Below, piece by piece: positions 152 through 17,518 of a DNA stretch of 64,000 nt. Origin of the DNA: an uncultured Eubacteriales bacterium. Its GTDB lineage: Bacteria > Bacillota > Clostridia > Christensenellales > Aristaeellaceae. The number at the start of each line of letters is the position of its first letter. Positions within the stretch are counted from its first letter, which is position 1. The notes below the pieces were generated by a model that was given only the letters and a program-made list of their open reading frames with translations, did no database searches and had not been told where the DNA came from. The translations under genes were made by a program, and so were the position numbers. The DNA is taken from NCBI GenBank assembly GCA_900315675.1, contig OMZY01000012.1, forward strand, positions 1-64,000, read 5' to 3'.

Positions 152-277
152 CCGCAATCTCAGTCGGCGCAGCGGGCATCGCTGATGCTTCAACCCGCTG
201 CTTGCTTCGATTGACTCGCTCAGGGCGCTTCCTGCTTCGCAGGATAGCCCACTGGGCTACCGCTTCCTTCGCTCCCC
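152..277 (+). repeat. structured repeat, unit A
   Basis: The unit begins CCGCAATCTCAGTCGGCGC and ends CGCTTCCTTCGCTCCCC, like unit C. It has a first hairpin built on GCAGCGGG/CCCGCTGC, the spacer TTCGATTGACTCGCTCAGG, and a second hairpin TAGCCC-ACT-GGGCTA at 245-259. The stem bases differ from those of sister units but pairing is kept. It ends at an 11-base copy of the 5S 3' flank. Confidence 0.75.
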
Positions 278-334
278 GGATTCCAATAGGCAGTTGCTTA
301 CGCAACTGCTGATTTACTATATTCGCTTTGAAAA

Positions 335-388
335 GTCCCAATGCCATTTGTCTTCTTGCATGATATGCAAATCAAATGGCATTGGGAC
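335..388. repeat. 16-bp perfect inverted repeat with nested stem
   Basis: GTCCCAATGCCATTTG at 335-350 pairs perfectly with 373-388, and the 22-base loop contains a second stem, TTGCAT-GAT-ATGCAA, at 356-370. There is no T-run on either side, so an ordinary intrinsic terminator is unlikely. It could be a structured RNA element or the core of a small mobile repeat. Confidence 0.75.
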
Positions 389-519
389 ATTATTCGTTCA
401 ACTCTACGAGTTTCACTCACGAATCCCTTGCAGGGATCCTGGCGAGCTTTTAGTTACGATGAACAGGTGGGAGGGGGAGAGACGAAGAGGTTCCTCCGCA
501 TTCTCAATGGTCGTTCTTT

Positions 520-625
520 CCGCAATCTCAATGGTCGCAACTCCACATTGTGGAGTTTGCTCCCTTTCGATTGACCTTACCTCTGACGAAATTTCTGCCA
601 CTGGCAGTCATCAGAGGTTCGCCCC
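520..625 (+). repeat. structured repeat, unit B
   Basis: The unit starts CCGCAATCTCAATGGTCGCA, preceded by a partial copy of the same phrase at about 495. Hairpin 1 is AACTCCAC-ATT-GTGGAGTT. Hairpin 2 is nested: outer stem ACCTCTGA/TCAGAGGT (579-586 with 611-618), inner stem CTGCC-ACT-GGCAG (595-607). It closes with TTCGCCCC. Its closest relative is unit D upstream of recA. Confidence 0.78.
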
Positions 626-770
626 TTGGAGCGGGCTGTGCTCTCCCTTTCGGTAAGGATTCGCGCGCGCACCGCGGGCGGAATTCCCGCCTCGCGCACC
701 GCGCACGACAGGACTCCGCCTCATTTCGGCTTCGCCGACAGCCCACTGGGCTGACATTCGGCTCGCTCCC
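626..770 (+). repeat. structured repeat, divergent unit
   Basis: This GC-rich segment contains GGCGG-AATT-CCCGCC and alternating CG runs. It ends with CAGCCC-ACT-GGGCTG (739-753) followed by GGCTCGCTCCCC, the same layout as the second half of units A and C. The first half is not alignable by eye with the other units. Confidence 0.55.
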
Positions 771-898
771 CGCAACCTCAATCGTCGCAGACGGCCTCGC
801 GAGGACGCTTCAGCCCTCTGCTTGTTTCGGTTGACTCGCTCAGGTCGCTTTTGTCTTACGGCAAATGACCCACTGGGTCACCGCTTCCTTCGCTCCCC
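770..898 (+). repeat. structured repeat, unit C
   Basis: The unit begins CCGCAACCTCAATCGTCGCA, has a CCTC-GC-GAGG stem inside a GCAGA/TCTGC stem, then GTTGACTCGCTCAGG, then TGACCC-ACT-GGGTCA at 866-880, and ends CGCTTCCTTCGCTCCCC. It abuts an 18-base copy of the 5S core at 901-918. Confidence 0.75.
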
Positions 899-17285: not shown

Positions 17286-17389
17286 CCGCAACTTCAATCG
17301 TCGCGACTCCCCGCAGGGGAGCTCGCTTGTTTCAGTTGACCTCAGCTCTGACAAAGCATCCGCCACCGGCGGTTGTCAGAGCTTCGCCC
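17286..17389 (+). repeat. structured repeat, unit D
   Basis: The unit begins CCGCAACTTCAATCGTCGC, has hairpin 1 CTCCCC-GCA-GGGGAG, the spacer TTGTTTCAGTTGACC, and a nested hairpin 2 with outer stem AGCTCTGACA/TGTCAGAGCT (17344-17353 with 17374-17383) and inner stem CCGCC-ACC-GGCGG (17360-17372). Relative to unit B, paired bases in both stems have changed together. Confidence 0.8.
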
Positions 17390-17518
17390 AAATTGAAATT
17401 TGGACAAATCCGTTTGTGATCGTCGTCTCCGCTCTGCCTTCGCCTGACGCTCGGCAATCGCGGACTCCTGTAGCAAAGGATTTGTTACCCAAATTGAAAT
17501 TTGGACAAATCCGTTTGT
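17387..17518 (+). repeat. direct repeat pair with nested hairpin
   Basis: The 31-base sequence starting CCCAAATTGAAATTTGGACA occurs at 17387 and again at 17488. In the second copy GGATTTGT (17478-17485) pairs with ACAAATCC (17505-17512) outside the CCAAATT/AATTTGG stem, giving a long hairpin just before the recA promoter. The phrase GTAGCAAAGGATTTGTT occurs in front of the cluster at 17267 and again before the second copy. Confidence 0.75.

Follow-up and report, generated by a model that had tools for sequence, protein, structure and literature searches.

The repeats beside the 5S rRNA gene at the start of this contig raise the question of what kind of element they are, and whether their structure is that of an RNA or of DNA. 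The window, meaning the whole stretch of DNA that was analyzed, comprises bases 1–64000 of contig 8 in a draft genome of 3.62 Mb and 57 contigs. The contig starts within a 5S rRNA gene, of which the 3′ part remains at positions 1–95 of the plus strand (RF00001, 68.5 bits) and adjoins the repeats, as the preliminary description had stated. A terminator-like hairpin lies 3′ of the gene at 103–132 on the same strand. Unit A, a full class I unit, is located on the minus strand at 152–277 and was identified by pair counts and by a score of 134.1 bits with our covariance model R1. It is followed at 278–310 (plus strand) by a second copy of the 5S trailer (GGATTCCAA) with a second terminator-like hairpin (289–310). 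Flush trailer copies of this type are also present at loci L026, L028, L031, and L113. Unit B, the other full class I unit, lies on the minus strand at 770–898 (122.3 bits). Directly after it, at 901–918 on the plus strand, there is an 18-nt fragment of 5S helix III that is identical to positions 11–28, followed by a hairpin at 919–944 (no strand assigned). Junctions resembling that between unit B and the 5S fragment were found at L001, L027, L031, L033, and L044.

Unit C (496–771, minus strand) was dissected by eye. A class I start at 496–519 is interrupted, and the second domain is resumed at approximately 717–771; in the whole-genome run, R1 matched the partial domain at 690–771 with 46.7 bits. 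A class II unit is nested in the first hairpin at 520–624 (minus strand; 32.1 bits over 520–623), and a GC-rich palindromic piece, with no strand assigned, occupies 658–716. The palindromic piece is also present at L007 and L014, and partly at L121. The earlier grouping of A, B, and C as one family is borne out for A and B as full class I units; C, with these two pieces nested in it, reads as a composite. Elsewhere in the window, another class II unit is located at 17286–17391 on the minus strand (34.7 bits over 17286–17388). R1 was trained on 70 copies that include units A and B; the class II units at 520–623 and 17286–17388 were outside the training set. The region between the units at 332–391 contains a strong 19-nt inverted repeat (95% complementary), and a similar one is observed at L009, near 415–475.

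The phrases previously described as shared are present with two or three mismatches at the start (152, 496, 520, 770, and 17286), in the middle (205 and 825), and at the end (261 and 882) of the units. The three hairpins described with them are also found, TAGCCC-ACT-GGGCTA from 245, CAGCCC-ACT-GGGCTG from 739, and TGACCC-ACT-GGGTCA from 866. A class I unit is approximately 120–130 nt long and has sharp ends, which read GGGG...TTGCGG on the minus strand; across 70 copies the ends on one strand are CCGCAA... and ...CTCCCC. Terminal inverted repeats were not seen at the ends of these 70 copies. As modeled, two domains can form when a class I unit is single-stranded. The stem CAAYC/GRTTG of domain 1 is followed by a tandem G.A step and a variable hairpin. 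In domain 2, tandem G.A steps break a stem that bears two small triloop hairpins. In unit A, the assignments made by eye (plus coordinates) are CAATC at 155–159 with GATTG at 209–213 for the outer helix of domain 1, 170–176 with 194–200 for hairpin 1, 231–243 for hairpin 2 with its TTC loop, and 245–259 for hairpin 3 with its ACT loop. The class II unit has a domain 1 of the same kind, and a long hairpin replaces domain 2.

To assemble an alignment, an HMM was run over 122 loci, which gave 187 hits, of which 131 were distinct and 98 full length. The 131 distinct hits were reduced to 95 by a stricter end filter and to 75 at less than 93% identity. The final minus-strand alignment (A3) holds 70 copies, namely 68 of these 75 and the two window units; L051, L072:843, L007:2104, L058, L041:1143, L026:500, and L121 were omitted on account of odd length, breakage, or poor match. 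A structure with 34 pairs was drawn by hand; standard pairs fill 92.9% of its 2379 cells, compared with 75.3% in shuffles and 29–37% with slid partners. The covariation score is 0.501 against 0.189 for shuffled and at most 0.089 for slid controls, although the slid control favors the hand-drawn structure because that structure was drawn from the same sequences. Changes on both sides are found in 29 of the 34 pairs. In a structure-free G-test with average-product correction over 7381 column pairs, nine of the 10 highest-ranking pairs are structural, as are 16 of the first 25. By this test, nine of the 34 pairs lie above the highest background pair and 16 lie above the 99.9% level of the background, which is not a phylogenetic null. 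The paired stem changes reported for three hairpins are thus seen in 70 copies above both shuffled and slid controls, and the covariation proposed for many copies is strong by our own statistics, which take the place of R-scape. The family is real and strongly structured.

The tandem G.A mismatches, which separate the helices, are nearly invariant on the minus strand. The A.G mismatch is present at 9.60 in 70 of 70 copies, at 74.122 in 69, and at 14.54 in 68, and the G.A mismatches at 8.61 and 73.123 are each present in 67. The partner step 13.55 varies (A.A in 32 copies, G.A in 25, A.C in 12, and A.T in one). The pair 11–58, which flanks G.A steps, swaps between G-C in 51 copies and C-G in 19. 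On the plus strand, the G.A steps would read as C and T mismatches. Tandem G.A steps are a known RNA motif, and tandem sheared G.A is favored after a pyrimidine; in DNA, GCGAAGC forms a very stable mini-hairpin. The individual folds are modest, with z-scores of −1.0 to −2.8 for seven RNA folds and −0.3 to −2.6 for six DNA folds.

Paired change in a palindrome can also be produced by mutation. Homogenization of arms by template switching is described in PMC8604942. If one arm were copied onto the other in this way, the palindromes would be kept perfect by mutation and not by selection. We compared nearest-neighbor copies, using 26 of the 34 pairs. Copies that differ at no more than 16 positions show 62 double changes from one Watson–Crick pair to another and 34 single changes, and this excess, together with the rarity of wobble intermediates, is as arm copying would have it. 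The same genomes also have antisense and sense copies of tRNA ends around units. At eight or fewer differences, however, one-sided changes are not fewer (five single and three double changes in five pairs of copies). Arm copying also leaves the sharp conserved ends, the near-invariant G.A steps and loops, and the insertion at L075 described below unexplained. As the whole explanation we regard it as quite unlikely, but arm-copying mutation may act in addition. The preliminary description had seen in the stems selection on RNA or single-stranded DNA structure, a reading that is supported in part. That structure is kept is confirmed; the RNA part of the claim is less supported, with G.T pairs being rare. 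The copies resemble mobile repetitive DNA, and some of the paired change could be the product of arm copying.

In an RNA helix, G.U is expected to outnumber A.C. On the minus strand, G.T accounts for 31 and A.C for 49 of the 2379 cells; 27 of the A.C cells fall in a single pair, 7–62, and without this pair the counts are 24 G.T and 22 A.C. As a yardstick, 13 distinct tRNAs from the same loci contain 19 G.T in 274 pairs. The share of G.T among G.T and Watson–Crick pairs is 1.4% in the units and 6.9% in the tRNAs (Fisher p = 4e-7). No A.C was counted in the tRNAs, but this zero should not be used for comparison, as ARAGORN may leave A.C pairs unbracketed. In the units, G.T is scarcer than among tRNAs and no more frequent than A.C, a pattern that speaks against an ordinary RNA. 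We favor DNA over RNA.

We also considered the units as a functional structured non-coding RNA, transcribed from the minus strand at many loci and selected as RNA. The covarying two-domain fold and the presence of tandem G.A steps on the minus strand only are consistent with such an RNA. A weak promoter-like site (nine of 12 matches) on the minus strand at 416–389 points at unit A from approximately 112 nt upstream; two promoter-like sites were counted in 1100 bases, with 0.5 expected. Against this stand the wobble counts and the variation in the number of R1 matches at E ≤ 1e-15 from 0 to 26 among genus-mates, many of whose genomes are incomplete. The orientation is likewise not constant, being opposite to the 5S gene in the window and the same as the gene at tRNA-Ala loci. 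The wobble test weakens the RNA gene reading, which we judge to be unlikely. In an Rfam scan of the window, the 5S gene alone reached its threshold; the region 100–960, scanned at E up to 5, gave nine weak matches, all below threshold. The statement that no named family has this layout agrees with these scans, as no Rfam family reached its threshold on the unit. The family was not described in the literature searched, which included few subscription journals, and this holds also for its motif CCTGAGCGAAG.

The covariance-model search suggested in the preliminary description was carried out with R1 and recovers the family in the window's own genome and in related ones. Neither an absence of further copies nor a lack of covariation, the two outcomes that would have refuted that description, was observed. 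At E ≤ 0.001 there are at least 47 matches in the own genome (G000), and at least 45 in G001, 68 in G002, 48 in G022, and 51 in G051; these counts include class II and partial units, and 150 of 847–1025 candidates were scored per genome. At E ≤ 1e-15, with 87 candidates scored per genome, the same five genomes have 26, 23, 22, 17, and 23 matches, respectively, and 30 of 41 genomes of the genus have a match. A DNA search with unit A gave 13 matches in the own genome, itself included. A search with unit B matched 17 of 41 genomes, all of them among the 25 of the genus (the own genome included) and none among the 16 of other families. When 61 genomes of the order were searched with stricter filters and at most 58 candidates per genome, the own genome matched 44 times and none of the other 60, three of which belong to the same family, gave a match. 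A pattern scan of named genome contigs returned 23 stretches, all titled as Clostridia or Clostridiales MAGs, with several titles naming rumen, omasum, or duodenum. As far as genomes of known kinship were searched, the family is restricted to one genus, which belongs to the gut Clostridia.

Evidence of movement comes from unit-free counterparts of occupied sites. Locus L075 in G022 differs from L123 in G001 by a unit and a second copy of a 25-nt stretch. The duplication is imperfect, with two mismatches between its copies; it is flush with one end of the unit and separated from the other end by four nucleotides, TTAT. The same site without the unit is also found at L131 (G051), L145 (G005), and L139 (G002). 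L075 is the sole insertion with a clean counterpart that shows its duplication. Unit-free sites also exist in relatives for L101 (three relatives) and L118 (one relative), where the flanks diverge next to the unit and the junction is not definable; L106 and L092, compared in search of a clean counterpart site, were not interpretable at the junction. Of 73 copies in the wider sample, 15 have a direct repeat flush with the plus-strand 3′ end at a score of at least 8, where shuffled flanks predict 1.3, and seven reach a score of 16 (0.3 predicted). Thus, 58 of the 73 copies lack a flush direct repeat at score 8. In the minority that have them, the flush repeats are 11–33 nt long, and part of them sit in pre-existing tandem repeats (L073 and L111). 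The plus-strand start is preceded by T in 48 of 66 copies. These samples of 73 and 66 were taken from the 75 copies by requiring sufficiently long flanks and canonical ends. A comparison of flank repeats was made on 96 copies before the 75-copy filter. Direct repeats were found in 25% of these, tandem units included, against 4.4%, and inverted flanks at score 24 in eight of 96 against 0.8% of 474 shuffled pairs. With eight of 96 copies, inverted flanks were rejected as a general rule.

Such junctions could also be left by a SINE-like retroelement inserted by target-primed reverse transcription, with the minus strand as the RNA, a flush 5′ end, a short A-rich 3′ junction, and long duplications. 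The duplication at L075 with ATAA at the minus-strand 3′ end, the A that follows the minus-strand end in 48 of 66 copies, and the flush repeats of 11–33 nt would all fit. However, in a search limited to the RVT_1 family, RVT_1 was absent from nine of 12 genomes, including the copy-rich G000, G001, G002, G022, and G051, and present in three. Reverse transcription was set aside as RVT_1 is lacking in the copy-rich genomes tested, and we consider it very improbable.

The 5S neighborhood noted in the preliminary description is present, and it proves to be one among several recurrent settings, the others being tRNA copies, REP hairpins, and other units. Of the 75 copies, 26 have sequence resembling a tRNA or 5S rRNA within 120 nt, compared with three of 52 control windows taken 500–620 nt away (p = 9e-5). 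Inspection by eye, without a control, showed nesting in a minority of copies. RAYT-type REPs have a unit in the loop at L006, L107, L098, L116, L117, L070, and L023, and at L008, L038, and L070 a unit sits in the first hairpin of another unit. Degenerate 5S and tRNA copies likewise enclose some units. One place behind tRNA-Ala(GGC), between the end of a GGCAGTG-type hairpin and a copy of ACAGGAGTTCG, is occupied by a class I unit in L165, L167, L170, and L171 and by a class II unit in L164, L169, and L179; it is empty in L177 and holds a remnant in L166. These are nine of 30 loci examined, in which six of the seven units were marked by script and that of L164 by eye. L091, L036, L078, and L076 denote the same positions as the four loci with a class I unit. 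Such a place is lacking at most of the remaining tRNA-Ala loci, and some are truncated by contig ends. At L036, L078, L032, L076, L091, L025, L089, and L120, the tRNA gene is followed by a terminator, a copy of the tRNA 3′ part that is partly antisense, the unit, and a sense copy of the tRNA 3′ end. These arrays vary in completeness and look like a palindrome-forming duplication. The 5S trailer is likewise present once antisense and once sense at some 5S loci.

A resident Y1 transposase of the RAYT type was examined as the possible mobilizer, in which case the unit would be a REPIN-like element. Y1_Tnp genes are widespread in the genus, being present in 25 of 41 genomes and three times in the own genome, and several units lie, by eye, within RAYT-type REP loops. 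Separate REPs of the own genome flank its RAYTs, and some such REPs carry units. The flanks of the three RAYT genes themselves, however, carry other palindromes, and when the listed unit matches of five genomes are considered, only one of the 16 Y1 genes found there lies within 5 kb of a unit. The presence of Y1 also does not track the number of units. G012 has five Y1 matches and one R1 match at E ≤ 1e-15, whereas G005 and G016, 70% and 60% complete, have 16 and eight R1 matches and no Y1 match. A 25-nt duplication, as at L075, is not expected from the IS200/IS605 mechanism, and replication-strand bias speaks no more clearly for a RAYT. None was found among the matches listed in three genomes of one or two contigs, with 49 units oriented with the fork and 44 against it, when dnaA was taken as the origin, the terminus was assumed to lie opposite, and 3.4 Mb was taken as the length of G051. 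Mobilization by a RAYT is supported neither by position nor by presence and appears improbable. The three RAYT-type Y1 genes of the own genome (L017, L018, and L019) are each accompanied by a separate palindromic repeat, and a GGGAC or GTCCC core is common to these repeats.

BOX, RUP, and SPRITE of Streptococcus pneumoniae are small interspersed non-coding repeats, and BOX is modular, with a boxA–boxB(n)–boxC arrangement and a fold predicted if it is transcribed, as set out in PMC3049150. The present family is similar to those descriptions in being a small interspersed non-coding repeat. It differs in occurring in another genus, and covariation, near-invariant tandem G.A, and nesting in hairpins are described for it. 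REP, BIME, and REPIN elements are short palindromic mobile DNA without a gene of their own and have many intergenic copies, according to PMC3116915. The present units share these properties with them as there characterized; they differ in consisting of two unlike domains in A3 rather than an inverted REP doublet, and they were not found beside the RAYT genes checked. MITEs are similar in being small, non-autonomous, and folded, and one clear duplication is seen here, but the present family is without a terminal inverted repeat. The target-site duplication is 25 nt in the one clean case and 11–33 nt in the minority of copies; 25 nt is longer than is usual for IS transposases. In integron attC sites, structure is kept over sequence and the site is recognized as a folded single strand, and the present family may resemble them in this principle. 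The family thus resembles BOX and REPINs in kind but lacks defining features of REPINs, namely a position beside the RAYT genes checked and an inverted REP doublet, and of MITEs, namely terminal inverted repeats.

Mobile DNA is most likely what the family represents. Its fuller description as a new family of small, non-coding, non-autonomous, structure-bearing mobile DNA repeats of the BOX/REPIN kind, on whose folded strand an enzyme would act in trans, has in our view an even chance of being right. The enzyme would recognize the unit folded as single-stranded DNA, and the strand concerned is most likely the minus strand, since the mismatches are G.A only there. Insertion would be preferred where the target also folds, as in REP hairpin loops, the first hairpin of other units, and degenerate 5S or tRNA copies. 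More tentatively, the family may represent a new class of bacterial mobile DNA in which a single strand, folded and held by tandem sheared G.A, would be recognized and the target would be another folded sequence, be it a REP loop, a unit hairpin, or a tRNA/5S docking place. Small folded repeats are common in bacteria, and for many of them the mode of movement is not known. The present family offers 98 full-length distinct hits from 122 loci, covaries strongly, and has both a clean counterpart site and docking places that recur. With it, one could examine if single-stranded DNA is recognized in its folded form and which enzyme moves it. The origin of paired changes in DNA palindromes, by selection or by arm-copying mutation, could be addressed as well.

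Other repeats were observed around the units. The flanks at L008, L013, L020, L100, and L103 contain a second structured repeat, GTCATTCTGAGC...GTCGAAGAATC, with a possible tandem G.A step, and several units are inside or beside it. Similar repeats may occur in other phyla. Short tandem repeats of the type TCCTACTTCCTACCTCC contain or adjoin units at L073, L078 (near 683), L101, L106, L111, and L041. At L005, L015, and L086, a related variant of the element appears to split a copy of the tRNA T-arm (GATTCGATACCGTTCGCTCAATCGTCGC ... CTCGTTTGCCACG), and at L005 the split copy is close to an intact tRNA gene.
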